DNA of 41,171 nt, from assembly GCA_020722345.1 (NCBI GenBank), contig DYKZ01000003.1, positions 1-41,171 of the forward strand. Reading direction: 5' to 3'. Positions 1 through 30,125 of the stretch are shown here, one piece after another (the stretch's first letter is position 1; every line of letters begins with the position of its first letter). The translations under genes were made by a program, and so were the position numbers. This DNA comes from Anaerolinea thermophila (GTDB lineage: Bacteria; Chloroflexota; Anaerolineae; Anaerolineales; Villigracilaceae). Below the pieces are notes generated by a model, which was given only the letters and a program-made list of their open reading frames with translations, did no database searches and was not told where the DNA came from.

Positions 1-1
1 C

Positions 2-154
2 GTGGCCGCACCGATGGCGTTCTTCCCGTTCAGCGGCGCGAAGGAAAGTTTCTTTGGCGACATGCACGGTCAGAGCATGGACGCGGTGGAGTTCTTTACG
101 CAGAAGAAGGTCGTCATCGAGCGCTGGCCGAAGGAATGGTCGCGCAAGTTCTAG
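2..154 (+). CDS. mmsA: C-terminus of CoA-acylating methylmalonate-semialdehyde dehydrogenase-like aldehyde dehydrogenase (5' truncated by window edge)
   Basis: Open frame from base 2: [50 protein letters not shown], matching the FPFSGxKxSFFGDxHxxGxxxVxFFTxxKxVxxRW tail of MMSDH. Confidence 0.75.
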
Positions 155-308: not shown

Positions 309-785
309 ATGTACGAAATCGACAATACAGACTTGCAAATCCTTGACCTTCTGATGGAAGATGGCCGCATGTCTGCGGCCAAAATTGCCCGTCGCGTGGG
401 AGATATTTCGGAGCGGGTTGTCCGCTATCGCATCGAGCGCATGGTCAAGGAGGGGTTGATTAAGGTCAGTGCCATCGCCAATCCAAGAAAATTCGGGTAT
501 ACGATCGTGGCGGATGTTGTCATCGAGGTAGAGCCGGCGCACATCCAGGATGTTGCTGAGAGGTTGATGCAGCACGACTGCGTAAGTTATGTGGCGTGTT
601 CTATCGGGGAGCGCGATGTTTCGGCGCAGGTGGTGGGTCGTAATACAGAAGAAGTGTATCGCTTTTCCACTGAAGTGATCGGCAAGATGGCAGGCGTCCG
701 GAAAACGACTACCTCCATCGTGCCGATTGTGATGAAGGACGTTTACCAGTGGCGCATCCCGCGCAGGGATGCAGGAACAGGATGA
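309..785 (+). CDS. Lrp/AsnC-family transcriptional regulator
   Basis: IDNTDLQILDLLMEDGRMSAAKIARRVGDISERVVRYRIERMVKEGLI HTH followed by an AsnC/RAM-like ligand domain. Confidence 0.9.
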   Translation: MYEIDNTDLQILDLLMEDGRMSAAKIARRVGDISERVVRYRIERMVKEGLIKVSAIANPRKFGYTIVADVVIEVEPAHIQDVAERLMQHDCVSYVACSIGERDVSAQVVGRNTEEVYRFSTEVIGKMAGVRKTTTSIVPIVMKDVYQWRIPRRDAGTG

Positions 786-868: not shown

Positions 869-2227
869 ATGCCTACAGATTTAAAACATGCACTCGAATA
901 TTCAGAGAAATGGCTCGGAATTATCAAGCAGGAGCGCGTCCCGGAAGATGTCGGCAAATGGATTATCGAGGAGTCGAAGTACAACTTTGCCGAACACTTC
1001 AACAAAGGCTGGCTCGAATACCGCAAGTCGGTGACCGAGGCTGGGCAGTGGGCAGCCACCGAGTGGACCGGCCGCGGCGCCATCTTCGAGGATGTCCTGG
1101 GCCGCAAGTACATTGATTTCCTTGGCGGCTATGGCATGATGGATCACGGCTGGAGTCACCCGGACGTGGTGGAGGCAGTGGCGGCGCAATTGAAACGCAC
1201 CCCTATGCCCAGCCAGGAGTTGATTGATCCGTTGCGCGGCGTTCTGGCGCGCCTGATTGCCGACATCGCCCCGGGCAACATCAAGTACTCGTTCTTTGTC
1301 GCCAGCGGCACCGAGGCTATCGAGGGCGCCATCAAACTGGCGAAGATGTACACCAAGAAGCCGGCCTTCATTGTTGGCGTCAAGGCCTTTCACGGCAAGA
1401 CGATGGGCTCGCTCTCAATGGTGGGCAAGGCCGATTACCGCCAGCCGCTTGGCGTGCTCTACGGCGGGCCGGTTTATCACGTTCCTTTTGGGGATGCTGA
1501 TGCCGTCGAGCGCCAATTGGATATCTGTGACAAGGTTGGCATTGGCGTGGCGGGCGTGCTCTTTGAGCCAATCCAGGGCGAGGCGGGTGGCATTGTTCCG
1601 CCGGACGACTTCTGGCCGCGCATTCGCGAGGCGACGAAGAAATACGGCGCCCTGCTCATTGCAGACGAAGTCCAAACCGGTCTTGGCCGGACCGGGAAAC
1701 TGTGGGGCGTGGACCACTGGGGCGTGGAGCCCGACATCATCGCCGTGGCCAAGTCGCTGGGCGGCGGCGTGATGCCGATCGGCACTTTCTGTTCCACCGA
1801 AGAGATCTGGCAGTGCATGATGTACCCGAACCCGTTCATCCATACCACCACCACGGGCGGTGGCGCGTTGGCTTGCTCGGCAGCCATTGCTGCCATCCAC
1901 GTGACCCTGCGCGAAAAACTTTGGGAAGTGGCGGCGGAAAAGGGCGAGTACATCCTGTCGAAGATCAAGGCGCTGGCGGAGAAGTACCCGCAAGTTTATA
2001 AGAGCGTGACCGGAAAAGGCTTGCTCATCGGAATGCACTTCCAAACTCCGGAGATTGGCTATAAAGTTGCGGCAGGCTTGTTCAAACGCGGTGTGCTGGT
2101 GGCCGGGACGCTCATCAGCGCGCAGACGGTTCGCATAGAACCGCCTCTCATTATAAGCAACGAACAGATTGATTCTGCGTTGGATCGGTTGGAAGATACC
2201 TTAAAAACCGTAAATAGGAGTCTGTAA
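869..2227 (+). CDS. patA: Class-III PLP aminotransferase, putrescine aminotransferase-like
   Basis: Close to remembered E. coli PatA/YgjG motifs: GFLEYRKSVT-like N-term, LGGxG, SQELxDPLR, KYSFF..SGTE, AFHGK, EPIQGEGG-like, DEVQTGxGRTGK, LGGGVMPIG, NPFxHTTTxGG, LVAGTL..A.T.RIEPPL. Confidence 0.85.
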   Translation: MPTDLKHALEYSEKWLGIIKQERVPEDVGKWIIEESKYNFAEHFNKGWLEYRKSVTEAGQWAATEWTGRGAIFEDVLGRKYIDFLGGYGMMDHGWSHPDVVEAVAAQLKRTPMPSQELIDPLRGVLARLIADIAPGNIKYSFFVASGTEAIEGAIKLAKMYTKKPAFIVGVKAFHGKTMGSLSMVGKADYRQPLGVLYGGPVYHVPFGDADAVERQLDICDKVGIGVAGVLFEPIQGEAGGIVPPDDFWPRIREATKKYGALLIADEVQTGLGRTGKLWGVDHWGVEPDIIAVAKSLGGGVMPIGTFCSTEEIWQCMMYPNPFIHTTTTGGGALACSAAIAAIHVTLREKLWEVAAEKGEYILSKIKALAEKYPQVYKSVTGKGLLIGMHFQTPEIGYKVAAGLFKRGVLVAGTLISAQTVRIEPPLIISNEQIDSALDRLEDTLKTVNRSL

Positions 2228-3363
2228 TGGACGAATTTGCTGTTGAGATGCGCGATGTGGTGAAAATTTTTCCGACGCCGGAAGGTGGCGAGGTGGCGGC
2301 TGTCAATCACGTAACATTGCAGATAAAACATGGAGAATTCTTCTCCATGCTGGGGCCTTCGGGTTGCGGAAAAACCACCTCGCTGCGCATGATGGCGGGT
2401 TTTGAATGGCCCACCGAGGGAGAAATCTTCATTGATGGCGCAGCAATGGGTCGCACCCCGCCTTATTTGCGCCCAATTAATACTGTCTTTCAAAGCTACG
2501 CTCTCTTTCAACATATGTCCGTTTTTCAGAATGTGGCTTTTGGCCTCGAAATGGAACATGTTCCGAAAAAAGAAATCGAACATCGCGTCGGGGCTGCCCT
2601 GGAGATGGTGAAATTGTCAGGAATGAGTCGCCGCAAGCCAAAACAGTTATCAGGAGGCCAACAGCAGCGCGTGGCCCTGGCGCGCGCTCTTATCAAGCGT
2701 CCCGCGGTACTATTACTAGATGAACCTCTTGGCGCGCTTGATTTGAAATTACGCAAAGAAATGCAACTGGAACTGAAAGCACTCCAGAAGGAAGTTGGTA
2801 TCACATTCGTCTATGTGACTCATGACCAGGAAGAGGCTCTGACAATGTCCGACCGGATTGCGGTAATGAGCCAGGGAAAGGTATTACAGATCGGTACTCC
2901 GGTTGAAATTTACGAACGCCCCAATTGTCGTTTTGTAGCCGATTTCATAGGTGAAACGAATTTCTTGAAAGGCAAAGTCAAAAAAATAGAAAGAGGTTTG
3001 CTCACGGTAGAATTGCCGGATTTCTCGCAAGAGATCAAAGGCATGGGGCATGAAAATCTTGCGGTTGGGCAGGATGTCTCTGTATCTATCCGCCCGGAAA
3101 AAATCCGTTTGGAAGATGATAATAATACTACTGCTGTTGAAGAAGATAAGGATAACATTTTACGTGGAAAAGTATTGGCAACGGCATATGTAGGCTCTGA
3201 TACTCGCATCATCGTTGATATTGGACATGATATTCATATGGTAGTTTGGGAACAGAACAACATCTCCACATTGGACCCACAAGCGTATTACGTTGCAGAT
3301 GATAAAGTGTTGGTTCACTTGCCGTTTGAAAACACCCTTGTGTTACCGGAAGGTGTCGCATGA
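2227..3363 (+). CDS. potA: Spermidine/putrescine ABC transporter ATP-binding protein
   Basis: Walker A GPSGCGKTT, signature LSGGQQQRVALARAL, Walker B VLLLDEPLGALD, C-terminal TOBE region; followed by two permeases and PotD-like SBP. Confidence 0.92.
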   Translation: MDEFAVEMRDVVKIFPTPEGGEVAAVNHVTLQIKHGEFFSMLGPSGCGKTTSLRMMAGFEWPTEGEIFIDGAAMGRTPPYLRPINTVFQSYALFQHMSVFQNVAFGLEMEHVPKKEIEHRVGAALEMVKLSGMSRRKPKQLSGGQQQRVALARALIKRPAVLLLDEPLGALDLKLRKEMQLELKALQKEVGITFVYVTHDQEEALTMSDRIAVMSQGKVLQIGTPVEIYERPNCRFVADFIGETNFLKGKVKKIERGLLTVELPDFSQEIKGMGHENLAVGQDVSVSIRPEKIRLEDDNNTTAVEEDKDNILRGKVLATAYVGSDTRIIVDIGHDIHMVVWEQNNISTLDPQAYYVADDKVLVHLPFENTLVLPEGVA

Positions 3364-4265
3364 GCACCGATAAACCCGAACTCAAGCGAAAGCATTCGTT
3401 GGCGCATATCCTGCGCGAGAATTCTGCCGTTCAGGGGATTGCTTTGATATCACCGACAGCCATATATATGCTGATATTCATCGTCCTGCCGATGATACTG
3501 GTCGCTGTGCTGAGTTTTATGTCTCGGGGAACTTATGGCAATGTGGTCTATGAGTTTAATTTCCAGAACTACGTTCGCCTTGTTGATCCACTATACTTTC
3601 GGATATTGCTCTATTCGCTCGGCGTAGGATTGGCCACGATGGTGTTTACTATTATGATTGGCTATCCTCTGGCTTACTTTATCGCCCGTTCACCGGCTCG
3701 GAAACGTTCATTTTATCTTTTCTTGATCTTATTGCCATTCTGGACCAATTTCATCATTCGGATTTACGCATGGATAATGATTTTGCGCACACAAGGATTA
3801 TTGAACACAGTCTTGCTCGACCTGGGCTTGATCCAAGATCCGCTGGAGATACTTTATACACCAACTGCGGTGTTAATCGGTATGGTGTATGAATTCCTGC
3901 CTTTCATGGTTCTCCCATTGTACACATCGTTGGAGAAGATCGAAAATGCTCAAATGGAGGCGGCCGCTGACTTAGGAGCCCGTCCTTGGAAGGTTTTCTT
4001 ACGAGTAACACTGCCTCTAAGTGTCCCCGGTATGATTGCCGGTTCGATCCTGGTATTCATCCCTGCCATGGGCATGTTTGTGGTTCCCGATTTAATGGGC
4101 GGAGCAAAGACAGTATTGGTAGGAAACGTCATTCGTAATCAGTTCTTGACTTCGCGCGATTGGCCTTTCGGAGCAGCGGCCTCGATGTTGTTGATGATTT
4201 TGACACTTGCCTTTACACTATATTACACCCGCAAGGCTGGCTTCGGGGAGGAGTTGTTGGTATGA
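3360..4265 (+). CDS. potB: Spermidine/putrescine ABC transporter permease PotB-type
   Basis: Multi-TM protein with EAAxDLGARPWKVFLRVTLPLSVPGMIAG motif; ATGA overlap with potA. Confidence 0.9.
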   Translation: MSTDKPELKRKHSLAHILRENSAVQGIALISPTAIYMLIFIVLPMILVAVLSFMSRGTYGNVVYEFNFQNYVRLVDPLYFRILLYSLGVGLATMVFTIMIGYPLAYFIARSPARKRSFYLFLILLPFWTNFIIRIYAWIMILRTQGLLNTVLLDLGLIQDPLEILYTPTAVLIGMVYEFLPFMVLPLYTSLEKIENAQMEAAADLGARPWKVFLRVTLPLSVPGMIAGSILVFIPAMGMFVVPDLMGGAKTVLVGNVIRNQFLTSRDWPFGAAASMLLMILTLAFTLYYTRKAGFGEELLV

Positions 4266-5041
4266 GCGAGAAAAAACCCGCCCTGTGGTTGCGCATCTTT
4301 TCATTCCTGGTTTATTTGTATTTCTACCTGCCCATCCTGATCTTGATCGTTTTCTCCTTTAACACGCAGAAACTCAATGTTCGTTGGGAGGGATTTACCC
4401 TGAAATGGTATGAGGTTTTATTTAATGACTCGAATGTCATGTTGGCAACGCGCAACACTTTAATAATAGCCTTTATTTCAACGCTCGTTGCAACAGTGAT
4501 TGGGACGATGGCGGCCCTGGCCCTGCAACGTTATCGCTTTCCAGGATATACCTTGATCGAATCGATACTATACATACCGGTCATAATTCCGGAAGTGGTC
4601 ATGGGTATCTCGTTGCTGGCTTTTTTTGCCCTGATAAAGTTTCAATTGGGATTGGTCACGATTACAATATCACATATTGCCTTCAATATTCCTTTTGTGA
4701 CATTGGTAGTCCGGGCACGATTGCACGGTTTCGACAAGTCTATTGAAGAGGCCTCAATGGATTTAGGCGCCAATGAACTCACCACTTTCTGGCGTGTAAC
4801 GCTGCCGACTATCATGCCGGGTGTATTGTCAGGCGCGATGCTGGCGTTTACACTCTCGCTGGACGATTATGTAATTACGTATTTTTCCGCCGGCCCGGGT
4901 GCGACAACTCTCCCGTTGCGTGTCTTCTCGATGGTCCGTTTTGCGGTGACGCCGGAAGTAAATGCCCTGTCCACATTATGGGTGTTGACCGTATTGGTAA
5001 TTCTATTGATAAGCCAGGTTGTGCAGAAACGCCAAACATAG
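4262..5041 (+). CDS. potC: Spermidine/putrescine ABC transporter permease PotC-type
   Basis: EEASMDLGANELTTFWRVTLPTIMPGVLSGAMLAFTLSLDDYVITYF motif; start set at 4262 (ATGA overlap with potB) rather than the ORF-track start 4160. Confidence 0.9.
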   Translation: MSEKKPALWLRIFSFLVYLYFYLPILILIVFSFNTQKLNVRWEGFTLKWYEVLFNDSNVMLATRNTLIIAFISTLVATVIGTMAALALQRYRFPGYTLIESILYIPVIIPEVVMGISLLAFFALIKFQLGLVTITISHIAFNIPFVTLVVRARLHGFDKSIEEASMDLGANELTTFWRVTLPTIMPGVLSGAMLAFTLSLDDYVITYFSAGPGATTLPLRVFSMVRFAVTPEVNALSTLWVLTVLVILLISQVVQKRQT

Positions 5042-5124
5042 GATTGGCCTTAACCGCCCGGCCGCAATTGTAGGCATATCGGGTGGAGGCAAAAAATAAA
5101 AAATATTGAAAAGGAGAAAAAATA

Positions 5125-6192
5125 ATGAACAAGTACAAATTGTTTGCCCTGGGTCTGACGCTGTCTATTCTGTTGGCAGCCTGCGGAGGCGGGGGTCCAG
5201 CCTCCGACAACGTGTTGAACCTGTATGCCTGGTCAGAGTATGTACCACAACAATTGTTGGACAACTTTACAGAGCAGACCGGCATCGAGGTCAACTACGA
5301 TACCTATTCGTCCAACGAAGAACTCATGGCGAAATTACAGGCCGGTGCATCGGGTTATGATGTGGTCATCCCCAGCGATTACACGGTGACGATCATGATC
5401 AACCAGGGGCTATTAGAGCCTCTCGACAAAACGCAGATTTCTAACTTTTCGAATATATTCGATACTCTAACAGGCCTTTCGTACGACCCCCAAAATGATT
5501 ACACAGTTCCCTGGCAGTGGGGCACCTCTTGCCTGGTTGTAGATACCGGTAAAGTCACAAGACCGATTACTAAATGGGCCGACTTGTGGGACCCCGAATT
5601 CGAGGGCAAGGTGGTGTTACTGGATGACGAGCGCGAAGTTCTTGGCATGGTTTTGAGCGTCTTGGGTTATGATAAAAACTCAACCGACCCCCAGCAACTG
5701 GAGGAGGCCAAGCAAAAATTGCTCGAACTCATGCCGAACGTCAAGTTATTCGACAGCGACAGTCCAAAGACCGCTCTCCTGGCGGGTGAAGTCTGGCTGG
5801 GACAAACCTGGAATGGCGAGGCCGCTCTGGCTCACATGGAAAATCCGGACATTCAATACATTATCCCGGAAGAGGGCTGTACCGTGTGGTATGACAATCT
5901 CGCCATTCCGAAGGATGCCCCGCATTACAATGCCGCGATGCAATTCATCAACTTCGTGCTGGACCCGCAAGAGAGCATCTTGATTACGTATGAGTTCCCA
6001 TATTCGAACCCAAACCGGGCCGCTTTGGAACTTCTGCAAACGGAAGACCCACAGGCCTATGACGCTTACATGAACTTCCCCGCGACCAACCCATCGGCTG
6101 ACGACATGTCACGGCTTAAGATGATCCAGGATGTCGGCGATGCGACCGCCCTGTGGGACCGGATTTGGACTGAAGTCAAAGGCGGCGAATAA
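5125..6192 (+). CDS. potD: Spermidine/putrescine-binding lipoprotein PotD-type
   Basis: Lipobox LLAAC; NVLNLYAWSEYVPQQLLDNFTEQTGIEVNYDTYSSNEELMAKL is typical of the PotD/PotF family; RBS aaaaggag upstream. Confidence 0.9.
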   Translation: MNKYKLFALGLTLSILLAACGGGGPASDNVLNLYAWSEYVPQQLLDNFTEQTGIEVNYDTYSSNEELMAKLQAGASGYDVVIPSDYTVTIMINQGLLEPLDKTQISNFSNIFDTLTGLSYDPQNDYTVPWQWGTSCLVVDTGKVTRPITKWADLWDPEFEGKVVLLDDEREVLGMVLSVLGYDKNSTDPQQLEEAKQKLLELMPNVKLFDSDSPKTALLAGEVWLGQTWNGEAALAHMENPDIQYIIPEEGCTVWYDNLAIPKDAPHYNAAMQFINFVLDPQESILITYEFPYSNPNRAALELLQTEDPQAYDAYMNFPATNPSADDMSRLKMIQDVGDATALWDRIWTEVKGGE

Positions 6193-6216
6193 AACTGCTT
6201 GTTTAGCCGCTAACAA

Positions 6217-6255
6217 TTCATGGTGAGGCGAGGTCTTGTCTTGCCTCACCATGAA
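6217..6255. other. Inverted repeat downstream of potD
   Basis: TTCATGGTGAGGC ... GCCTCACCATGAA, 13-bp perfect arms, no T-tract. Confidence 0.7.
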
Positions 6256-6401
6256 GTAGAAATTATCTACATTTGCTTCTTGCGTAGATCTCTGGATCTG
6301 TCGCTATTGGTGTCTTGGTTTGTGCGACGTTTCGATCCAGATAGTTTACGATGCCCTTTGATTATTACCGATCCAGGCAGGATCGCTCAAGGAGAACCTA
6401 A

Positions 6402-7610
6402 ATGAAAATATTGCTTGTTGGTGTTGGCGGGGTTGGGGAGGCCATTGCGGTAATTGCCAAAGACCGCCCATGGGTAGAGAAAATTGTCCTTTCAGACTAC
6501 AACCGCGGACGGATTAAAGAAGTTCAGGAACGACTCGGTGACCCGGAGCGGTTTCCAGCCGAATGGGTTGATGCCAATAAACAAGAACAAATTGAGGCGT
6601 TGGCTGCCAAATATAAGGTTGACCTCATCATGAATGCCTGCGACCCTCTCTATAATGTGCCCATCTTCGATGCGGCTTACAACGCCGGTTGCATGTACAT
6701 GGACATGGCAATGACCCTTTCCGCGCCTCACCCGGAGAAGCCGCATGAGAAATGTGGCGTGAAATTGGGTGATTACCAGTTCGAACGCGCCAAAGACTGG
6801 GAGAAGAAAGGACTGCTCGCTATCGTTGGCCTCGGCGTGGAGCCCGGCATGGCGGACGTGTTTGCCCGCTATGCACAGGATTACCTTTTCGATGAAATTG
6901 ACGAGATTGGCATCCGCGACGGCGCCAACATAGAGGTCAAAGGTTATGATTTCGCTCCGAATTTCTCTATCTGGACTACCATTGAAGAATGCCTAAATCC
7001 ACCGGTCATCTGGGAAAAGGACAAGGGCTGGTTTACTACTCCGCCGTTCTCCGAGCCGGAGGTGTTCGAATTCCCGGAAGGAATTGGCAAGATCGAGGTC
7101 GTGAACGTGGAACATGAAGAGGTGCTTCTCGTGCCGCGCTGGGTCAAATGCAAACGCGTCACTTTCAAATACGGCCTGGGAGATCAATTCATTGGTATCC
7201 TCAAAACCTTGCACATGTTGGGCCTGGATAATAAGGAACCGATCAAAGTCAAGGATGTGATGGTTGCTCCGCGCGACGTTGTGGCGGCCTGCCTGCCCGA
7301 CCCCGCCCACCTGGGCGACCGGATGTTTGGTAAAACCTGCGCCGGCACATGGGTAAAGGGCAAGAGGGACGGCCAGGAAAAGCAGGTCTATCTCTACCAG
7401 GTGGCCGATAACGAGGCGTGCATGAAGAAATTTGGCTGCCAGGCCGTGGTGGCGCAGACAGCTTTCAACGCCGTCATCGGCATGGACTTGCTCGAGCATG
7501 GCATCTGGAAGGGCGTTGGTGTGCTTGGCCCGGAAGCCTTCGATCCGGCTCCGTTCATGAACAAGATGGCCGAATACGGCTTCCCTTATGGTATTCGGGA
7601 GATCAAGTGA
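6402..7610 (+). CDS. Saccharopine dehydrogenase-like NAD(P)-binding protein
   Basis: N-terminal Rossmann motif MKILLVGVGGVGEAIA, length 402 aa, saccharopine DH/carboxynorspermidine synthase-type layout (VGLGVEPGMADVFARYA). Confidence 0.75.
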   Translation: MKILLVGVGGVGEAIAVIAKDRPWVEKIVLSDYNRGRIKEVQERLGDPERFPAEWVDANKQEQIEALAAKYKVDLIMNACDPLYNVPIFDAAYNAGCMYMDMAMTLSAPHPEKPHEKCGVKLGDYQFERAKDWEKKGLLAIVGLGVEPGMADVFARYAQDYLFDEIDEIGIRDGANIEVKGYDFAPNFSIWTTIEECLNPPVIWEKDKGWFTTPPFSEPEVFEFPEGIGKIEVVNVEHEEVLLVPRWVKCKRVTFKYGLGDQFIGILKTLHMLGLDNKEPIKVKDVMVAPRDVVAACLPDPAHLGDRMFGKTCAGTWVKGKRDGQEKQVYLYQVADNEACMKKFGCQAVVAQTAFNAVIGMDLLEHGIWKGVGVLGPEAFDPAPFMNKMAEYGFPYGIREIK

Positions 7611-7645
7611 ACATACTCTGACCGTTTCAGGAGAAGGAGGCTCTT

Positions 7646-9559
7646 ATGCCTTACGGTTACCACGGAAAAATCCTGCATGTTGACCTGACTACCGGCGAAA
7701 TAGAGGTCGAGACTCCGCCCGAATCATTCTATCGGACCTACATGGGCGGCTCGGCCATGGCGATGACTTACATCCTGCGCGAGGTCCCGAAAGGCGCCGA
7801 TCCGCTCGGACCGGCAAACCTGCTCACCGTTTTCCCCAGCGTGGTCACCGGGGCGAGCATTGCCGGGCAAAGCCGCATCAGCGTCAACGCCAAATCCCCG
7901 ATGAGCGGAGCGATTGGCGACTCGCAGGCGGGAGGTTTCTTCCCGGCCGAGCTCAAGTTCGCCGGGTACGACGGCGTGGTCTTCCGCGGCCAGTCGCCAA
8001 AGTGGGTCTACCTGACCATCCTCAACGGTGAAGCCCGGCTCCACGACGCCTCCCACCTGCTCGGCAAAGTCACCGGCGAAGTGGACGCCCTCCTCAAACA
8101 GGAAGTCGGCGATCCCAAGGCCGAGGTCATGCAGATCGGCCCGGCGGCCGAGAAAGGTGTCCGCTTCTCTGGCATCGTCAGCATGGCCAACCGCTTGAAC
8201 GGACGCACCGGGATGGGGCTGGTCATGGCAAGCAAAAGACTCAAGGCCATTGTCGTGCGCGGCAAGCAAAAACCGCAAGTGGCCGACCCCAAAGCCCTGG
8301 CTGCACTGAACAAGACTGGGACCCAATGGATTCCCACCAATCCCGATGTGGATGGCTTGGGGAAACTCGGTACGGCCAGCGTCGTCATGCCGCAAAACTC
8401 GTTTGGCACCCTGCCAACTCGCAACTACACCGAAGGCCAGTTCGAGCATGCCGAAGCCATCAGCGGCGAGAAGATGGCCGAAACCATCCTCAAAGAGCGC
8501 GATACCTGTTATGCCTGCACCGTCCGCTGCAAGCGCGTGGTGGAAATTACCGAAGGAAAATACAAGGTTGATCCGGTCTATGGCGGTGCAGAATATGAAA
8601 CCATCGCTACCTTCGGTTCCTATTGCGGCGTCGGCGACCTGGCGGCCATCTCGATGGCGCACCAAATCTGCGACATGTACGGCGTGGACACCATTTCATG
8701 CGGTGCGACGATTGCTTTTGCCATGGAGTGTTTCGAAAAGGGCATCATCACCAAAGAGGATACCGGCGGTATCGAACTACGTTTTGGCAACGCCGAGGCC
8801 ATGCTGGAGGTGTTGAACCAAATCGTGACGAAGAGCGGCAAACTTGGCCCGATCCTGGCTGAGGGTTCGGCGCGTGCCGCCCAGGTCTGGGGCAAGGGCG
8901 CCGACGAGTGCCTGATTACCGTGAAAAACGAGGAAGCCCCGGCGCACATGCCGCAGGCCAAACGATCCCTGGCGCTTATCTACGCGGTCAATCCCTTTGG
9001 CGCCGACCACCAGTCCAGCGAGCATGACTGGATGTACGAGCAGGGCATGGCCTCTGACCTCTACCTGGGGAGATTGGCCACCATGGGACTCACCAACCCG
9101 CCCGAACAGATGTCGCTGGGCGAGGAGAAGGTGAAGTTCGCGTATTTCGGACAGGCATTCTACAGCATGATGGATAGTCTGGATCTCTGCCAGTTCGTCT
9201 GGGGCCCAGCCTGGTGCCTGTTCGGCCCGGTCGAGACGGTCGGGATGGTCAAAGCCGTGACCGGTTGGAATGTAACCCTCGACGAACTCATTGCAGTTGG
9301 CATCCGCCGCATCAACCTGATGCGCACCTTCAACGCCCGCGAAGGGTTCACCCGTAAAGAGGATTCCCTGCCAGAGAAATTCTTCAAGCCGCTGGGCGGC
9401 ACTGGACCGACAGCCGGGATTGCCGTTGGCAGGGAAGAATTCGAGAACGCGCTTAACCTGTATTACCAATTACACGGCTGGACAGAAAACGGCGTCCCCA
9501 CGACGGCGGCGTTGGAAAGATCGGGCATCGAATGGGCGGCGGAATACCTGACTGCGTGA
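7646..9559 (+). CDS. Aldehyde:ferredoxin oxidoreductase family (tungsten-type) AOR1
   Basis: GRTGMGLVMASKRLKAIVVRG, Fe-S motif C-x2-C-x3-C (CYACTVRC), AQVWGKGADE, GADHQSSEHD, C-terminal SLDLCQF Cys; RBS aggagaaggagg. Confidence 0.9.
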   Translation: MPYGYHGKILHVDLTTGEIEVETPPESFYRTYMGGSAMAMTYILREVPKGADPLGPANLLTVFPSVVTGASIAGQSRISVNAKSPMSGAIGDSQAGGFFPAELKFAGYDGVVFRGQSPKWVYLTILNGEARLHDASHLLGKVTGEVDALLKQEVGDPKAEVMQIGPAAEKGVRFSGIVSMANRLNGRTGMGLVMASKRLKAIVVRGKQKPQVADPKALAALNKTGTQWIPTNPDVDGLGKLGTASVVMPQNSFGTLPTRNYTEGQFEHAEAISGEKMAETILKERDTCYACTVRCKRVVEITEGKYKVDPVYGGAEYETIATFGSYCGVGDLAAISMAHQICDMYGVDTISCGATIAFAMECFEKGIITKEDTGGIELRFGNAEAMLEVLNQIVTKSGKLGPILAEGSARAAQVWGKGADECLITVKNEEAPAHMPQAKRSLALIYAVNPFGADHQSSEHDWMYEQGMASDLYLGRLATMGLTNPPEQMSLGEEKVKFAYFGQAFYSMMDSLDLCQFVWGPAWCLFGPVETVGMVKAVTGWNVTLDELIAVGIRRINLMRTFNAREGFTRKEDSLPEKFFKPLGGTGPTAGIAVGREEFENALNLYYQLHGWTENGVPTTAALERSGIEWAAEYLTA

Positions 9560-9568
9560 CAAAATACA

Positions 9569-9592
9569 CGGGGAGGGGTCACCCCTCCCCGT
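9569..9592 (+). terminator. Strong intercistronic hairpin after AOR1 (no T-tract)
   Basis: ACGGGGAGGGG-TCA-CCCCTCCCCGT, 11-bp perfect stem. Confidence 0.5.
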
Positions 9593-9701
9593 AAACTTCC
9601 CTCGCTGAGCAGACTTGCAAGTGATTTGAAAACGGGCATTACAATGATCATGGGCGCATTGCTTGATCGTTTTCCTCTTTTTTATCAACAAAGGTGCATC
9701 T

Positions 9702-10973
9702 ATGTCTCTCTACGAAGAAAACTTTTCCCACATGTCTCCCGTCTGGACGCACATTTTCCCCATTCAGAGCAATCGCGCTGAGGGGTGTTACATCTACGCC
9801 GACGACGGGAAGAAATATCTCGACTTCACTTGCGGCATCGGCGTGACCAATACCGGCCACTGCCACCCGAAGGTGGTGGAAGCCATCCGCGAGCAGGCTG
9901 GCCTTTTCCTGCACGCCCAGGCCAATATCGTCGTCCACAAGCCGATGATGGAACTCATCGCCGAACTTCGGACGATTGTCAACCCGGCCATTGACGGCTT
10001 CTTCTTCAGCAACTCCGGCGCCGAGGCGCTGGAGGGCGCGGTCAAATTGGCGCGCGCTGCCACGGGAAAGCCGAACATCATTGTCTTCAGCGGTTCGTTC
10101 CATGGCCGCACCGCCGGGACGATGGCGTTGACCACCTCCAAGACCATCTACCGGTCAGGCTTCCAGCCTCTGCCGGCGGGCGTGTTCGTTGCTCCATATC
10201 CGTATGCTTACAAACTTGGTATGAGTGAAGAGAAAACGACAGAGTATTGCCTCGCTGCGCTGGAGGAACTCCTGCTCTCTCAGACCTCGCCCGCCGAGAC
10301 CGCCGCCATCCTGATCGAGCCGGAACTGGGCGAGGGCGGCTATGTTGTCCCACCCGCTGCGTTCATGCAAGGGTTACGCCAATTGTGCGACAGGCATGGC
10401 CTCCTGCTCATCTTCGACGAAGTCCAGTCGGGTTTTGGCCGGACCGGGAAGTGGTTCGCCCAGGAACATTTCGGCGTCACCCCCGACATCATGACCGTTG
10501 CCAAGGGCATCGCCTCGGGCCTGCCGCTCTCAGGCGTCTTCAGCCGCCTTGACCTGATGAAGAAGTGGCAGACCGGCTCCCACGGCGGGACGTACGGCGG
10601 CAACGCCCTGGCCTGCGCGGCCGCTGTGGCCACCATTCGCGCCATGCGGGAGGAGGATATGCCCGGAAACGCGGCCCGGCGCGGGGTCCAGTTAACGAGC
10701 GGGCTGCGCAAATTCCAGAAGGAATATCCCATCATCGGCGACGTACGCGGCCTTGGCCTGATGATCGGCACCGAGTTCACCGTGAACGGCAAACCGGCCG
10801 ACAAGTCCATTGTCAAGAATGTCATCCACGCCTGCCAAGAACGCGGCCTGCTCCTGCTCTCTTGCGGTACCTACGATAACGTTATCCGCTGGATCCCGCC
10901 GCTCATCGTTACCGAAGAACAGATCAATGATGCCCTGCGCATTTTTGGCGAGTCTTTGGAGGAGGCCCTCTAA
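9702..10973 (+). CDS. gabT: Class-III PLP aminotransferase, 4-aminobutyrate aminotransferase-like
   Basis: YLDFTCGIGVTNTGHCHPKVVEAI, NSGAEALEGAVKLAR, GSFHGRTAGTMALTTSK, FDEVQSGFGRTGKWFA, GGTYGGNALACAAA; start at 9702 with aaaggtg upstream. Confidence 0.8.
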   Translation: MSLYEENFSHMSPVWTHIFPIQSNRAEGCYIYADDGKKYLDFTCGIGVTNTGHCHPKVVEAIREQAGLFLHAQANIVVHKPMMELIAELRTIVNPAIDGFFFSNSGAEALEGAVKLARAATGKPNIIVFSGSFHGRTAGTMALTTSKTIYRSGFQPLPAGVFVAPYPYAYKLGMSEEKTTEYCLAALEELLLSQTSPAETAAILIEPELGEGGYVVPPAAFMQGLRQLCDRHGLLLIFDEVQSGFGRTGKWFAQEHFGVTPDIMTVAKGIASGLPLSGVFSRLDLMKKWQTGSHGGTYGGNALACAAAVATIRAMREEDMPGNAARRGVQLTSGLRKFQKEYPIIGDVRGLGLMIGTEFTVNGKPADKSIVKNVIHACQERGLLLLSCGTYDNVIRWIPPLIVTEEQINDALRIFGESLEEAL

Positions 10974-11055
10974 CAGACAGTGGACGTGGGTGGAGCGCTT
11001 GTCCGCCGCCTACACAGGAGGGCGCCGTTGAATTTGCCAACGCAAGGAGAAAACC

Positions 11056-12786
11056 ATGCCTGAAGTTAAAACCTACGAGTCGAAAGTTTGGCGCGTCAAC
11101 GTTCGCACTCAGACCCTGAACCTGGGACCTGTTCCCGAGACTTGGGAGCGGCTTGGCGGACGCGGCTTGATCGCGCGCATCTTGCTCGACGAAGTTCCAC
11201 CGGAATGCGAACCGCTTGGTCCAAGAAACAAACTCCTCTTCTGCCCCGGCCTGCTGGTGGGACATATGCTCTCTTCCTGCGACAGAATCTCGGTTGGCGG
11301 CAAAAGCCCTCTGACCGGAGGCGTCAAAGAGTCCAATGCCGGCGGTACGACCGGCATGCAGTTGACTTTGCTGGGAATCAAGGCTTTGATCATTGAGGAT
11401 CAACCGACAAAACCCGGCTGGTGGGTTCTGCATCTCTCAACGCAAGGGGCTCGCTTCGACCCGGCTAATGATGTTGTAGGCCTAGGTGTGTATGATGCGG
11501 CTGCTAAACTTATTGAAAAATATGGAGAGAAAGTCGCCATTGCTCTGATTGGCCCTGGCGGCGAGATGAAACTGCAAGTGGCAGGCATTCAAAATCTGGA
11601 TAAGGATAAGGTTCCTTCCCGTATTGCCGGGCGTGGCGGCTTGGGTGCAGTGATGGGGTCCAAGGGCTTAAAGGCCATCGTGATTGACGCATCTGGTGGT
11701 CAAAAACCTGCCATTCAAGACCCTGAGGCTTTCAAAGAGGCTCAAAAGGCTTTTACCAAAGCCCTGACGGAACACCCTCAGACGCACACTTATCACGACT
11801 ATGGCACAGCGGCAATGGTGCAAATGTGTCAGACCTTTGGCTCGCTGCCCACCCGCAACTTTTCGTCTGGTCAATTTGAGCATGCAGATACCCTCTCCGG
11901 CGAGTACCTGCGCGATACGATTTTGCAGCGTGGCGGTGTTTCCAAGCCCAATCATCCCTGCATGCCGGGCTGCGCCATCCAGTGTTCCAACGTTTATGGC
12001 AGCGAAGACGGTCAACAGGTGCTGGTTTCACCCATAGAGTACGAGACCATCGGCTTAATGGGTTCGAATTTGGGGATCGGCAGCCTGGATGTGGTTGCAA
12101 AGTTGAACCGCGCTGTGAATGACCTTGGCCTGGATACCATTGATATTGGCGCTGCTCTTGGTGTGGCTGCCGAAGCCGGTTTGATGGAGTGGGGGGATGG
12201 CGAGCGTGCTCTGGAGTTGATTGACGAGATTCGGCGCAACACCCCCCTAGGACGCATTCTGGGCAATGGCGCCGCTATGGCCGGCAAGGTGCTTGGGATT
12301 GAGCGTGTGCCGGTGTCCAAAAACCAGGCGATGGCGGCATATGAGCCGCGCGCCATCAAAGGAACAGGAGTCACTTACGCCACATCTCCCCAGGGCGCTG
12401 ACCATACCGCAGGCCTGACAATCCGCGATAAGATCAATCATCTTGATCCAAAAGGGCAGGTGGAATTATCGCGCGCCAAACAGATCTCCATGGCCGGTTA
12501 TGATGCGCTGGGGGCCTGTATTTTTGCAGGCTTTGGTTTTGCGGCTGCACCCGCCGGCACTATCGCCCGTTTGCTCAATGCACGCTATGGCTGGAATGTT
12601 CCCGACGATATCCTGCAGGCGCTCGGCAAGGAAACGCTTACGTTAGAGCGTGAGTTCAACCGCAGGGCCGGATTTACAGCCAAAGACGATCGCCTCCCCG
12701 AATGGATGACGCGCGAAGCCCTGCCGCCGCACAATGCAGTCTTCGATGTTCCGTCAGAAGAATTGGACAAACTTTTCGAGTGGTAG
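11056..12786 (+). CDS. Aldehyde:ferredoxin oxidoreductase family AOR2
   Basis: AGRGGLGAVMGSKGLKAIVI, Fe-S motif CMPGCAIQC (C-x3-C-x3-C), GADHTAG, DALGAC C-terminal Cys. Confidence 0.9.
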   Translation: MPEVKTYESKVWRVNVRTQTLNLGPVPETWERLGGRGLIARILLDEVPPECEPLGPRNKLLFCPGLLVGHMLSSCDRISVGGKSPLTGGVKESNAGGTTGMQLTLLGIKALIIEDQPTKPGWWVLHLSTQGARFDPANDVVGLGVYDAAAKLIEKYGEKVAIALIGPGGEMKLQVAGIQNLDKDKVPSRIAGRGGLGAVMGSKGLKAIVIDASGGQKPAIQDPEAFKEAQKAFTKALTEHPQTHTYHDYGTAAMVQMCQTFGSLPTRNFSSGQFEHADTLSGEYLRDTILQRGGVSKPNHPCMPGCAIQCSNVYGSEDGQQVLVSPIEYETIGLMGSNLGIGSLDVVAKLNRAVNDLGLDTIDIGAALGVAAEAGLMEWGDGERALELIDEIRRNTPLGRILGNGAAMAGKVLGIERVPVSKNQAMAAYEPRAIKGTGVTYATSPQGADHTAGLTIRDKINHLDPKGQVELSRAKQISMAGYDALGACIFAGFGFAAAPAGTIARLLNARYGWNVPDDILQALGKETLTLEREFNRRAGFTAKDDRLPEWMTREALPPHNAVFDVPSEELDKLFEW

Positions 12787-12801
12787 TGTGCGTTAAAGTC
12801 A

Positions 12802-12846
12802 AACGTCAAAGGCCGAACGCTCACGTTCGACCTTTGACGTTTTTTT
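12802..12846 (+). terminator. Rho-independent terminator after AOR2
   Basis: AACGTCAAAGGcCGAACG-CTCA-CGTTCGaCCTTTGACGTT followed by TTTTT. Confidence 0.85.
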
Positions 12847-12851
12847 GGCTG

Positions 12852-14511: not shown

Positions 14512-16152
14512 ATGAAAAAGAAACTGCAAATTATGCTGGCTGTCCTCATGGTCGCGGTATTGGCCCTTTCGGCCTGCCAGCCTAAAAGCGGCGAAAAAGT
14601 GACCATCATCATCGGTGTGACCGATCAAATTGCCAGTCTCGACCCGGCGGATGCGTATGCCACCCATGACTGGGAATTGATCAAGAATATCGGCGAAGGG
14701 CTGTTGGTGTGGAAACCCGGTTCTTCAGATGAACTTGTCCCTGGCATTGCACAAGATATGCCTGAGATCTCGGAAGATGGGCTTACCTACACCCTGAAAC
14801 TCAAGCCAGGCATCAAGTTCGGTGACGGCCTGGAATTGACTGCCCCAATGTATGCTCAGCAGCTCAACCGTCTGCTGACCATTGGTCCATCCTGCCCGAA
14901 TGATGTGGCTGATACGCTCGCCATTCCTTACGTGGAAAGCATCACCGCCCCGGATGACGAAACCCTGGTCTTCCAACTTAAGGTTCCAGTCGCCTACTTC
15001 CCGCAGATCCTGGCAGATGCGCCGTATTTGCCCTCTCACCCGGACAAATTCCCGCTCACGGAATGCGTCCTCTTCCCCGAGGCCCCCATCTATGGCGTCG
15101 GCCCCTGGTTCATCAGCCAGTACACCCAGAACGAACAACTCGTGCTCGAGCCCAACCCCTATTATGAAGGGGAGCGCACCCCGCAGGTGGATCAGATCAT
15201 TATCCGCTACTTCACCGATCCGCAGACACTGGCCCTGGCTGTTCAGAATGGCGAGATTGACATCGCCTGGCGCTTCCTGGATCCCGAGTTGATTGATCAA
15301 TTGCGCGGTGTCGCCGATCTGACTGTTGGTGACATCCCTGGTGGCGCCATTCGCTACCTGATTCTGAATCACACCATGGCTCCGATGGACGATCCGAATG
15401 TGGCCAAGGCCTTCGCCGCCACCATCGATCGCGACGCCATTGTGGATACCGTCTATAAAGGCGCTGCAACGCCGCTCTTCTCAATGGACCCGCCTGGATT
15501 CCTGGGCGCTACGGATGCATTCGACACCATGTACCAGTCACCCAACATTACCCTGGCCAATGAGTTCCTGGCTGCCTCTGGCTATGATGAGAACAACAAG
15601 TGCGCCATCGAACTCTGGTACCCGCCTGACCACTACGGCGCTGCCACTGCTGCCTGGATGGAATTGATTAAGCAGCAATTGGAAGCCGCCAATTTCACGG
15701 TGGATTTGAAGGCGCAGGAGTGGAGCACTTACGTTACGGCGCTCACCGGCGGCGAATCCTACCAGGCTGGTGTGTTGGGCTGGTTCTATGACTATCCCGA
15801 TCCGTCCAACTATCTGGATCCCTTCGTGTACAACGGCGGTATGGGCACCAATGTCACCTTAGCCGCGGAAGGCAGCGACTATGGAGAGGCAATCAACGAG
15901 AAAGCCCAGCAACTGGTTGACCTGCTCGCACAGGCGGATGTGGAAACCGATATAGCCGCCCGTACGGAACTCTACCAGCAGGCTCAGGAAATCTACGCCG
16001 ACCTGGTTGTGACCGTGCCGATCATTATTTTAGGGGAACACATCACCTATCGCTCCAATATACATGGTTCGGATGCGTACGGGGCAGCCGAAACCTTGAA
16101 TATCGCCACGAACCTCGAGTTCAACTACTCGACATTGACCAAAACACCGTAG
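14512..16152 (+). CDS. ABC transporter substrate-binding lipoprotein, peptide/nickel family 5
   Basis: Lipobox LALSAC; SLDPADAYATHDWELIKNIGEGLLVW, GPWFISQYTQNEQLVLEPNPYYEGE; followed by DppBCDF-type genes. Confidence 0.9.
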   Translation: MKKKLQIMLAVLMVAVLALSACQPKSGEKVTIIIGVTDQIASLDPADAYATHDWELIKNIGEGLLVWKPGSSDELVPGIAQDMPEISEDGLTYTLKLKPGIKFGDGLELTAPMYAQQLNRLLTIGPSCPNDVADTLAIPYVESITAPDDETLVFQLKVPVAYFPQILADAPYLPSHPDKFPLTECVLFPEAPIYGVGPWFISQYTQNEQLVLEPNPYYEGERTPQVDQIIIRYFTDPQTLALAVQNGEIDIAWRFLDPELIDQLRGVADLTVGDIPGGAIRYLILNHTMAPMDDPNVAKAFAATIDRDAIVDTVYKGAATPLFSMDPPGFLGATDAFDTMYQSPNITLANEFLAASGYDENNKCAIELWYPPDHYGAATAAWMELIKQQLEAANFTVDLKAQEWSTYVTALTGGESYQAGVLGWFYDYPDPSNYLDPFVYNGGMGTNVTLAAEGSDYGEAINEKAQQLVDLLAQADVETDIAARTELYQQAQEIYADLVVTVPIIILGEHITYRSNIHGSDAYGAAETLNIATNLEFNYSTLTKTP

Positions 16153-16163
16153 CGCACAACACC

Positions 16164-16189
16164 GGGGGCGGGGTTTCCCCGCCCCCTTT
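16164..16189 (+). terminator. Intercistronic hairpin between SBP and permease genes
   Basis: GGGGGCGGGG-TTT-CCCCGCCCCC then TTTC. Confidence 0.6.
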
Positions 16190-16197
16190 CCAAAAAC

Positions 16198-17295
16198 ATG
16201 ACCCCCATATCCTTCATTTTGCTCATCATTGGCATCCCTTTGGCGCTCATGCTCCTGTATGTTTTCATCAGGGGTTCGATGGGCCTCCGCAAGTACATCC
16301 TGACTCGCATTGGGCTGACATTGCCAATGGTCTTCATTCTTGCCTCCCTGGTTTTTTTTATCATGCGAGTTTTGCCCGGCGATCCCGTACGCTCTGCCCT
16401 GGGGCCGCGTGGAACGGCAGAACAGGCCGAACACATGCGCCAAGCGCTCGGCCTGGATAAGCCCCTGATCGTCCAATATGGCATTTTCTTGAAAGATATC
16501 ATCACGTTGAATTTTGGGAATTCCATGGTAGGGGGCCACCGCCCGATCATTGACGAGATGAGCGAGCGTTTTCCGGCAACTCTGGAATTGATCGTTCCTG
16601 CCTCCATTTTGGCCCTGGCCATTGGGATCATAGGAGGGGCGCTGGCAGCCTCCAGAAGGAAGGCCGCAGCAGATTATTTCCTGCGAGTCTATTCGGTGGT
16701 CATCTATTCGCTGCCCATATTCTGGTTCGGGCTCATGCTGCAATTGTTATTTGGCATTCAACTGAAACTGCTGCCTGTGGCAGGCCGGATAGACCCGATT
16801 ATCCGCACGACCCTGGAACCTGTCACCAACATGTACTTGATCGATTCACTCATCAGCGGCAACTGGCCGGCCTTGGGGTCGGCGGTTTCCCACCTGATCC
16901 TGCCCACGATCACCCTGGGACTGGTACTGTCGGGTGTGTTCGTGCGCATGACCCGCATCAATGTCATCGAGACTCTGCAAGCCGACTACATCGCTGCGGC
17001 GCGCGCCCGCGGCATTCGGGAGAAAGTGGTGGTGTATGGTCATGCTCTGAAGAACGCAATGATCCCGGTCATTACCCTGATTGGCCTTCAGGTCGCCATT
17101 CTCCTGGCGGGGGCAGTGCTGACAGAGACCATCTTCAACTGGCCTGGCATGGGCGGTTACCTGGTGCAAAGGATATCCGCCCGCGATTACACGGCCGTAC
17201 AGAGTGTCATTGCCATGTTTGCCCTGCTGGTGGCCCTCATCAGCCTGACGGTGGACTTAATCTATTCATTACTCGATCCGCGGGTGAGGTATTAA
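16198..17295 (+). CDS. dppB: Peptide ABC transporter permease DppB-type
   Basis: PMVFILASLVFFIMRVLPGDPVRSALGP; DYIAAARARGIREKVVVYGHALKNAMIPVITLIGLQ; ETIFNWPGMGGYLVQRI. The exact start may be downstream (~16279). Confidence 0.88.
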   Translation: MTPISFILLIIGIPLALMLLYVFIRGSMGLRKYILTRIGLTLPMVFILASLVFFIMRVLPGDPVRSALGPRGTAEQAEHMRQALGLDKPLIVQYGIFLKDIITLNFGNSMVGGHRPIIDEMSERFPATLELIVPASILALAIGIIGGALAASRRKAAADYFLRVYSVVIYSLPIFWFGLMLQLLFGIQLKLLPVAGRIDPIIRTTLEPVTNMYLIDSLISGNWPALGSAVSHLILPTITLGLVLSGVFVRMTRINVIETLQADYIAAARARGIREKVVVYGHALKNAMIPVITLIGLQVAILLAGAVLTETIFNWPGMGGYLVQRISARDYTAVQSVIAMFALLVALISLTVDLIYSLLDPRVRY

Positions 17296-17297
17296 AT

Positions 17298-18581
17298 ATG
17301 CCCTCCATTGATGAAAATGGCATCGAAATCAAACAGAAAACCGAAGCCTGGAAAAGCGACCTGCAGAGGGTCGGGTTTGTTCGGCGTCTCTTCATGGCGC
17401 GCAAATGGTATGGCGCAGACTGGTGGTTTGTGGCTATCTCGGCAGTGATGGTGGCCGGCTTCATCTTTATTGCTCTCTTTCCGGGGTTGCTGGCTCCCTA
17501 CGCCTCAGATGAGATTGTTGGTACCAGTTTTCTGTCTCCCGGTGCTTACCCGGTGGTGCCGGTTCTTCTGGCGCGATCCGAGTCTTCCGCTCAAACGTTG
17601 CTTGACCTGGCTGTCCCTGAAGATAGTGAACGGCCTGTTGTGGGAGTGCTCATGGGCGGCCCGACTGCCACGGCCTTGCGTGAGCGCGCCCAGGAACTAG
17701 ACAACCAACTTGTCAGTCAGGGCAGCGACCTGCGCCTGAGGCCGCGCATCGAGCGTTACGCCACTATGGAAGAATTGCTGGAGGCTGTAGACGCCGGCGA
17801 AGTCCACGCTGCTGTGGTGGATTTGCACGAATTTGAGAAACTGGCCGCAAACTATCCCGACCTGCGGGCCGGCGATTCCATCACCGGTGAAACGGCTGCG
17901 GCTGGCGGTTTCATCATGGGAACCAACGAAATCGGCCAGGATGTTTTCAGCCGCCTGATCTGGGGCACGCGCATCGCCATCATTGTCGGCTTCTCCTCTT
18001 CGATCATCTCGTTGTTGTTTGGCTTGCCCCTTGGCTTGCTTGCCGGTTACCTCGGTGGGACGTTCGACCGCCTGCTCAGCCTCCTGATGGACAGCCTGTA
18101 TGCCTTCCCTGGACTGATCCTGGCGATTGCCATCACTGCTGTTTTGGGCCCCAGCATGTACAATGTAATCATTGCGATCTCTGTGCTTTACGTCCCCACT
18201 TATTATCGCATCGTGCGCGGGCAGACCCTGGCCGTCAAGGAGGAAGTTTACATCGAGGCAGCCAGGAGCATTGGGGCGCGCCGCTGGGAGATCCTGTGGC
18301 GTTACATTTACCCGAACGTGATCCCATCTATTGCCATCATCTTTTCGGTCAATGTGGCCGATGCTATCCTGACCGGCGCCGGCCTGTCGTTCCTGGGCCT
18401 GGGCATGCCTCCCACTATTGCGGACTGGGGCATTGACTTGGCGCGCGGCCAGCGGTTCATCCAGACGGCCTGGTGGCTGATTACCTACCCTGGCCTGGCC
18501 ATCATGTTGGTAGTCCTTGCCTTCACGATGATGGGGGAGGGGTTGATGGAAATCTATAATCCCAAGTTACGGGAGCGCTGA
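17298..18581 (+). CDS. dppC: Peptide ABC transporter permease DppC-type with a long insert after TM1
   Basis: MGTNEIGQDVFSRLIWGTRIAI; YIEAARSIGARRWEILWRYIYPNVIPSI; ILTGAGLSFLGLGMPPTIADWG; ~120 aa extra sequence between TM1 and the GTD-x2-G-RD-like motif. Confidence 0.88.
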   Translation: MPSIDENGIEIKQKTEAWKSDLQRVGFVRRLFMARKWYGADWWFVAISAVMVAGFIFIALFPGLLAPYASDEIVGTSFLSPGAYPVVPVLLARSESSAQTLLDLAVPEDSERPVVGVLMGGPTATALRERAQELDNQLVSQGSDLRLRPRIERYATMEELLEAVDAGEVHAAVVDLHEFEKLAANYPDLRAGDSITGETAAAGGFIMGTNEIGQDVFSRLIWGTRIAIIVGFSSSIISLLFGLPLGLLAGYLGGTFDRLLSLLMDSLYAFPGLILAIAITAVLGPSMYNVIIAISVLYVPTYYRIVRGQTLAVKEEVYIEAARSIGARRWEILWRYIYPNVIPSIAIIFSVNVADAILTGAGLSFLGLGMPPTIADWGIDLARGQRFIQTAWWLITYPGLAIMLVVLAFTMMGEGLMEIYNPKLRER

Positions 18582-19579
18582 TGCCTGCAGAACCGCTTTT
18601 TTCCATTCGCAATTTGACCGTCGAGTATGCTACGCGTGCCGGCGCTGTAAAGGCCGCCGAGGACGTCTCCTTCGATATCCGGCGCGAGGAAATCCTGGGA
18701 CTGGTTGGCGAGTCTGGGTGCGGAAAATCCACGCTGGGCAAAGCGCTGATGCGTCTCCATCGCACCCCGGCGCGCATTACTGGCGGCGAACTGCTCTTCG
18801 ACGGCCGCGACCTGATGAAACTGACCGAAGACGAAATGCGCGCCGTACGCGGCGCCGAGATCGGGATGGTCTTCCAGGACCCGATGACTTCCCTCAACCC
18901 GGTCCAGCGCATTATCGAGCACTTGACCGAGACGGTGCGCGCCCACGAGCCGCGAACCACTGACCAGGAAGCCCGCGAACGCGCCGCGGTCCTGGCCGAG
19001 AAACTGGGGATACGCAGTGAACGCCTGAAAGAATACCCGCACCAGATGTCCGGGGGGATGCGGCAGCGCGTGATGATCTCGCTGGCCCTGGCGCTGCGGG
19101 CGAAACTGGTCATCGCCGATGAGCCGACCACATCCCTGGATGTGATCGTGGAGGCGAAATTCCTCGACCTGCTACGCGAACTCCGCCGGGAATTCGGCCT
19201 CACCATCCTGCTCATCACGCACAACATCGGCGTAGTGGCCGAAATTGCCGACCGGGTAGCCGTCATGTATGCTGCCCGCCTGGTCGAAATTGGCGACGTG
19301 CAGGACATTTTTGCCTCTCCCAAGCACCCCTATACACAGGGACTGTTGCGCTCGGTGCCAAATATCCAGTTGGACGGCGAAAGTCTTTACAAAATGGAAG
19401 GTATGCCGCCCAATCTGCTCCATCCGCCGCGAGGTTGCCGTTTCCACCCGCGCTGCCCCTTTGCGATGGAGATATGCCGAGATTATTCTCCCGAATTACA
19501 GGCGGTGGATGGAGATCACTTTACCGCTTGCTGGCTTTATCACAAAACCACCGGGAAGGAGGGGGCGAAGAATGGCTGA
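18581..19579 (+). CDS. dppD: Peptide ABC transporter ATP-binding protein DppD-type
   Basis: [43 protein letters not shown]-terminal [21 protein letters not shown] oligopeptide extension. Confidence 0.9.
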
Positions 19580-29422: not shown

Positions 29423-29450
29423 ATCGCTCTGATGTGCGTTTTACCGACTA

Positions 29451-30110: not shown

Positions 30111-30125
30111 CTCTTTTCCTTCCTG

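Follow-up and report, generated by a model that had tools for sequence, protein, structure and literature searches.

The window analysed here, a stretch of 41,171 nucleotides from Anaerolinea thermophila (Chloroflexota; Anaerolineales; Villigracilaceae), forms the start of contig C287 (DYKZ01000003.1) in an assembly of 3.07 Mb and 398 contigs that is 97.9% complete. Its left part carries a gene cluster in which a polyamine-type transporter and class-III aminotransferases stand beside two members of the aldehyde:ferredoxin oxidoreductase (AOR) family, and an earlier note, made from the sequence alone, had proposed that these two enzymes carry out both aldehyde oxidations of a polyamine catabolic route. 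We checked the gene identities against curated models (NCBIfam, PRK and TIGR, with their bit cut-offs), Pfam and the best matches in the PDB. All genes named in the earlier note (Lrp, PatA-like, PotABCD, the saccharopine dehydrogenase family protein, AOR1, GabT-like and AOR2) were found on the plus strand in the place given for them, as was the strong terminator that closes the cluster. The start of the cluster had been set too far to the right, at 869, since the Lrp gene and the end of a CoA-acylating dehydrogenase already precede it. The features are as follows.

1..154, plus strand: methylmalonate/malonate-semialdehyde dehydrogenase (MMSDH) type, CoA-acylating, C-terminal end, truncated by the contig edge
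174..199, plus strand: hairpin resembling an intrinsic terminator, downstream of MMSDH (z -4.1)
309..785, plus strand: Lrp/AsnC-family regulator (Pfam HTH_AsnC-type and AsnC_trans_reg)
869..2227, plus strand: PatA-like class-III (putrescine) aminotransferase (PRK11522, 568.9 bits, cut-off 612; best PDB match 4uox, PatA)
2227..3363, plus strand: PotA, polyamine ABC transporter ATPase (TIGR01187, 378.9 bits, cut-off 355.6)
3360..4265, plus strand: PotB permease (PRK09497, 302.6 bits, cut-off 348)
4262..5041, plus strand: PotC permease (PRK09500, 284.6 bits, cut-off 326; reading frame open from 4160, likely start 4262)
5125..6192, plus strand: PotD, predicted polyamine-binding lipoprotein (PRK09501, 273.4 bits, below cut-off; best PDB matches 8y5h and 1pot, spermidine/putrescine-binding proteins)
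6402..7610, plus strand: carboxyspermidine-dehydrogenase-like protein of the saccharopine dehydrogenase family, hereafter SDH (best PDB matches 4ina, 4rl6, 8deb)
7646..9559, plus strand: AOR1, AOR-family enzyme, proposed aminoaldehyde oxidase (Pfam AFOR_N and AFOR_C)
9568..9593, no strand assigned: strong GC hairpin in the AOR1-GabT gap, the plus strand lacking a T-run
9702..10973, plus strand: GabT-like class-III aminotransferase (PRK08117, 545.5 bits, cut-off 574; PDB matches PuuE and GabT; reading frame open from 9663, likely start 9702)
11056..12786, plus strand: AOR2, second AOR-family enzyme, proposed semialdehyde oxidase (Pfam AFOR_N and AFOR_C)
12797..12846, plus strand: strong intrinsic terminator followed by a T-run (fold of 12796-12850, -28.1 kcal/mol, z -6.7)

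MMSDH is incomplete because the window begins at the contig's first base. Given the hairpins at 174-199 and 9568-9593, a single transcript for the cluster is not established, and the second of these may separate or stabilise transcripts. Beyond the closing terminator lies a tRNA-Thr on the opposite strand.

The arrangement recurs widely. In a class sample of 298 genomes, with neighbourhoods compared over stretches of up to 20 kb, 22 genomes in addition to that of the window have an SDH ortholog (68-80% identity); below these comes a homologue at 53% identity, and all remaining ones show at most 32%. Within the same family the ortholog is present in 12 of the 13 other sampled genomes, G164 being the exception. 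The conserved block runs from an aminotransferase, MMSDH, PatA, PotABCD, a second Lrp gene, SDH and sometimes a sodium symporter to AOR1, GabT, often a further aminotransferase, AOR2 and then the glycosyltransferase seen in the window; the nearest relative (L098, AOR1 at 88%) possesses the left end that is truncated here. An AOR1 alignment scanned against about 85,000 prokaryote species yielded 525 relatives, the best 80 of which bear names of Chloroflexota or Anaerolineales type, one of them Villigracilaceae. When the count is confined to informative loci, those with enough contig to judge, the SDH ortholog lies upstream of AOR1 in 51 of 60 and GabT downstream in 68 of 72, and the other genes found near AOR1 are PatA (41/51), AOR2 (40/58), MMSDH (29/48), at least three Pot genes (27/51) and the symporter (15/51). 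An arrangement recurring in dozens of genomes is far beyond chance, and its recurrence in the wider sampling of Anaerolineales and Anaerolineae rules out that conservation is confined to near relatives. The gene order on which the earlier note had built its proposal is thus kept across many uncultured members of the Anaerolineales. Its description of two aminotransferase-AOR pairs as fixed units did not survive the comparison, as GabT and AOR2 often have an extra aminotransferase between them, and 18 of the 58 informative loci have no AOR2.

Other families of the Anaerolineae hold AOR1 homologues (55-60% identity) whose neighbours are a distant member of the SDH family, class-III aminotransferases and Pot genes (L067-L070, L088, L089) or, in L094, MMSDH in place of the Pot genes. 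The distant SDH that directly adjoins the AOR1 homologue at all of these loci is lysine-6-dehydrogenase-like. As a separate observation on the space between GabT and AOR2, one locus (L112) has a nickel-dependent malate racemase-like gene inserted there (LarAH6, 493.6 bits, cut-off 500), and another (L175) has an open reading frame of similar size.

The link to polyamines begins with the transporter: an ATPase, two permeases and a binding protein of the polyamine subfamily stand in one run, with PotA above its curated cut-off and PotB, PotC and PotD matching their own models best, yet below the cut-offs. For PatA and GabT, the best family and structure matches likewise fit the assigned roles at scores under the model cut-offs. 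In another family (L048) the order is Lrp, PatA, putrescine carbamoyltransferase, agmatine deiminase, symporter, SDH and AOR1, with both agmatine-pathway enzymes above cut-off; agmatine deiminase is also found in the clusters of L099 and L126. Genes of the agmatine deiminase pathway (AguA, putrescine carbamoyltransferase) are thus shared by relatives' clusters, both at L048 and AguA at the other two, whereas the window's cluster has neither. Loci without Pot genes carry SSF symporters or AA_permease_2 permeases instead. Taken with the recurrence in relatives, these matches bear out the proposal of a polyamine-linked cluster in the Anaerolineae. The Lrp and PotBCD proteins of the window are nearer to those of L040, from a different family (60-69%), than to those of most same-family genomes (about 40-55%), unlike SDH and AOR1, which follow family relationships; judged by these similarities, an exchange of both transporter and regulator may have taken place.

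AOR1 and AOR2 both exceed the Pfam cut-offs for AFOR_N and AFOR_C, and 114 AOR1 and 49 AOR2 homologues show no variation in the four cysteines of the iron-sulfur cluster or in the active-site Glu and His. Among solved structures, both enzymes lie nearest to AORs of the kind represented by 1aor, 9mqx, 8c0z and 9g7j, with FOR, WOR5 and BamB behind these; assignment as GAPOR, FOR or BamB was rejected on these AOR-type best matches, the GAPOR score being 26 bits where the cut-off is 1300. Placement in a clade with a specific unrelated substrate, which would have spoken against the proposal, was not seen, the closest solved relatives being general AORs. With the Pyrococcus furiosus AOR (1aor) and the other three structures they share the AFOR domains, cysteines and active-site residues, and they differ from known AORs in being fixed to polyamine genes and, for AOR2, in a shorter length (576 residues) and a CX3CX3C rather than CX2CX3C motif. 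In a FastTree phylogeny of 120 AORs, the cluster-linked AOR1 sequences are strongly grouped (9 changes versus 29 in shuffles) and do not form one clade. From their family membership both enzymes would be expected to use tungsten and ferredoxin. Molybdopterin genes, the absence of which would have undermined the proposal, are present in the window's genome as MoaA and two MoeA-type genes; PBP_like_2 proteins are also present and do not identify a tungstate transporter.

An argument on function comes from what takes the place of these enzymes in relatives. Eleven family genomes, the window's included, have AOR1 and AOR2 and no close aminobutyraldehyde dehydrogenase; dehydrogenase homologues in these 11 reach only 35-38% identity, with none at that threshold in the window's genome. 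When whole genomes were searched, G148 and G111 alone in the family had an aminobutyraldehyde dehydrogenase at 80-100% identity, and these are exactly the two cluster-bearing genomes of the family without AOR1 and AOR2. In G148, two such dehydrogenases (686 and 690 bits, cut-off 615) lie between SDH and GabT, that is in the slot of AOR1, which additionally holds a lactaldehyde-dehydrogenase-like gene. By label shuffling the perfect 11/2 split among 13 genomes has a chance of 1 in 78, a correlative figure from a small sample. Each of the two genomes belongs to a genus that also contains AOR-bearing genomes, and G148 retains one unrelated AOR, so that the loss there is not simply a loss of the cofactor. 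This pattern suggests that AOR1 probably oxidises an aminoaldehyde.

For AOR2 the case is weaker. At two loci without AOR2 beside GabT (L144 and L161), a CoA-acylating aldehyde dehydrogenase follows GabT (524 and 541 bits to the model for acylating sulfoacetaldehyde dehydrogenase, cut-off 600), and G034, which has no close AOR2, carries a lactaldehyde-dehydrogenase-like gene in the GabT-AOR1 interval; at the other loci without AOR2 no substitute gene was seen. Since AOR2 follows GabT, or GabT and another aminotransferase, its substrate may be succinic semialdehyde. The claim that both aldehyde steps are done by AORs thus gains partial support, from the reciprocal swap of AORs for aminobutyraldehyde dehydrogenases, and the substrates it names stay conjectural.

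The dehydrogenase content of the window's genome points in the same direction. As the earlier note had stated, no PatD- or GabD-type NAD(P)-dependent dehydrogenase lies inside the cluster, and no intact PatD- or GabD-like gene was found elsewhere in the genome. A superfamily search for aldehyde dehydrogenases (ALDH) detected no intact gene besides the cut MMSDH, although fragments can escape such a search (the cut MMSDH itself, only about 50 residues long, was not listed) and the assembly lacks about 2% of the genome. Its sole match was a scrap with three stops (G000:C179:16614-16814, L186) beside a third AOR gene (L058), and may be what is left of a dehydrogenase at a site where the AOR has persisted. 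Within these limits, the gene content suggests that the organism relies on AORs for the aldehydes of the polyamine route. It would nevertheless be wrong to regard the cluster as free of aldehyde dehydrogenases, because the CoA-acylating MMSDH belongs to its conserved form. The end at 1-154 shows 88-94% identity over 50 residues to the ends of full-length MMSDHs in 12 family genomes, and one of these full-length genes scores 558 bits on TIGR01722, above the cut-off of 448; the rest of the assembly did not yield the N-terminal part of the cut gene.

Known polyamine breakdown proceeds with NAD-linked dehydrogenases or amine oxidases. In the Escherichia coli putrescine route, PatA yields 4-aminobutanal, an NAD-dependent dehydrogenase oxidises it to gamma-aminobutyric acid (GABA), GabT converts this to succinic semialdehyde and GabD forms succinate. 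The cluster shares with this route the PatA-like and GabT-like class-III aminotransferases and the Pot transporter, and two relatives (G148 and G111) add the aminobutyraldehyde dehydrogenases; it differs in that AOR1 and AOR2 are found where the route would call for PatD and GabD, and in SDH and MMSDH, which have no counterpart there. Gene content, conservation and replacement pattern are direct observations, and the predicted folds of the cluster proteins are clear from their sequences. On these grounds we read the cluster, with a probability of about 0.65, as PatA/GabT-type polyamine catabolism with AORs in place of the NAD-linked aldehyde dehydrogenases. PotABCD would take up putrescine and/or spermidine, PatA would transaminate putrescine to 4-aminobutanal, AOR1 would oxidise the aminoaldehyde to GABA, GabT would transaminate GABA to succinic semialdehyde, and AOR2 would oxidise the latter to succinate, the AOR electrons passing to ferredoxin as expected for the family. 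MMSDH would probably act on malonic semialdehyde derived from a C3 amine, and SDH probably on a C-N bond of a polyamine with NAD(P). We infer every substrate, metal and electron acceptor in this scheme.

Several points weigh against it. PatA and most Pot proteins score under their curated equivalog cut-offs, and AOR1-like genes in the Anaerolineae are also found without any polyamine genes. No Rnf above cut-off was detected, RnfC giving a sub-threshold match only. Gene neighbourhood cannot fix which AOR takes which aldehyde, and the substrate range is probably wider than putrescine, as its plain breakdown needs neither MMSDH nor SDH. The four-step scheme of the earlier note accordingly falls short as a full account, leaving SDH unexplained.

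The closest solved relatives of SDH are carboxyspermidine dehydrogenases or presumed members of that group (4ina, 4rl6, 8deb), and its sole NCBIfam match is carboxynorspermidine synthase, at 203 bits against a cut-off of 800. The catalytic residues proposed for carboxyspermidine dehydrogenase are His228, Glu229, Glu230 and Glu188 (PMC10413350). Their equivalents are kept in all 79 SDH homologues, and the similarity to the characterised enzyme (8deb) extends over the whole length; in contrast, Ser144 of that enzyme is mostly Ala and its NPE motif is IWT in the homologues. A decarboxylase partner is also lacking: no NspC scored over cut-off in 16 genomes, and the window's genome gave no match whatever. 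A biosynthetic role as carboxyspermidine dehydrogenase is for this reason not favoured, even with the catalytic residues kept.

The absence of NspC, required for biosynthesis, and the retained catalytic residues lend themselves to a tentative alternative, in which SDH would run the related chemistry in reverse and cleave spermidine with NAD(P)+ into putrescine and 3-aminopropanal. AOR1 would then oxidise both aminoaldehydes, beta-alanine would be transaminated and carried by MMSDH to acetyl-CoA, and the putrescine half would reach succinate via AOR2. Such a cleavage would account at once for SDH, for the several aminotransferases and for MMSDH, which would turn malonic semialdehyde into acetyl-CoA; MMSDH above the TIGR01722 cut-off within the conserved cluster, the extra aminotransferases and the two aminobutyraldehyde dehydrogenases in the G148 cassette are all consistent with it. 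On the other side stand the altered Ser144 and NPE motif, the occurrence of SDH alone in other families and its retention in clusters of the agmatine type where no Pot genes are in view (L048, L099, L126), the last of which disfavours a purely spermidine role. We also know of no NAD(P)-dependent spermidine-cleaving enzyme in this protein family, which counts further against the idea. A complete ferredoxin-linked route from spermidine to acetyl-CoA and succinate, with cleavage by the SDH branch feeding AOR1 and with AOR2 on succinic semialdehyde, is doubtful; if real, it would be a route not described before, and one by which the use of polyamines would supply low-potential electrons as well.

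That polyamines are minor, and the AORs act on other semialdehydes from a different amine or omega-amino acid (agmatine-derived, lysine-derived, cadaverine or beta-alanine), appears unlikely. The transporters do differ by locus (Pot, SSF symporters, AA_permease_2), lysine-6-dehydrogenase-like SDHs adjoin the AOR1 homologues of other families, and GabT and PatA score under their equivalog cut-offs; yet PotA lies above its cut-off, PotD is closest to polyamine-binding proteins, the replacing enzymes are aminobutyraldehyde dehydrogenases, and the L048 cluster holds putrescine carbamoyltransferase and agmatine deiminase above cut-off. Finally, AORs are broad-substrate enzymes and the window's own genome has two more of them, but that AOR1 and AOR2 are general aldehyde detoxifiers or acid reducers merely placed in a polyamine operon, with its aldehydes oxidised elsewhere, is distinctly improbable given the lack of an ALDH candidate elsewhere in the genome, the tight adjacency to GabT and the coincidence of AOR1/AOR2 loss with the gain of aminobutyraldehyde dehydrogenases.

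With AOR-based polyamine catabolism as the preferred reading, the known part is the E. coli pathway logic, and the new part is the use of AORs for its dehydrogenases together with SDH. Our literature search, which left most subscription journals and preprints outside its scope, found no published link between AORs and putrescine or polyamine degradation. If the reading is correct, the free energy of aldehyde oxidation would be captured as reduced ferredoxin and not as NADH, which is relevant to energy-limited anaerobes, and high-energy electrons would be recoverable from a common nitrogen compound. It would also provide physiological substrates for two AOR subfamilies of the Anaerolineales, organisms of groundwater, sediment and wastewater, and it makes a clear biochemical prediction for SDH's branch of the saccharopine dehydrogenase family.

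The remainder of the window holds, on the plus strand behind a glycosyltransferase, genes for an oligopeptide-type ABC transporter at 14512-20618 (SBP_bac_5, two permeases and an ATPase). On the minus strand follow acyl-CoA carboxylase genes at 27911-31727 (biotin carboxylase and carboxyltransferase) and, at 32077-37143, a gene for a protein of 1688 residues with two PMT-type (mannosyltransferase-like) membrane regions.

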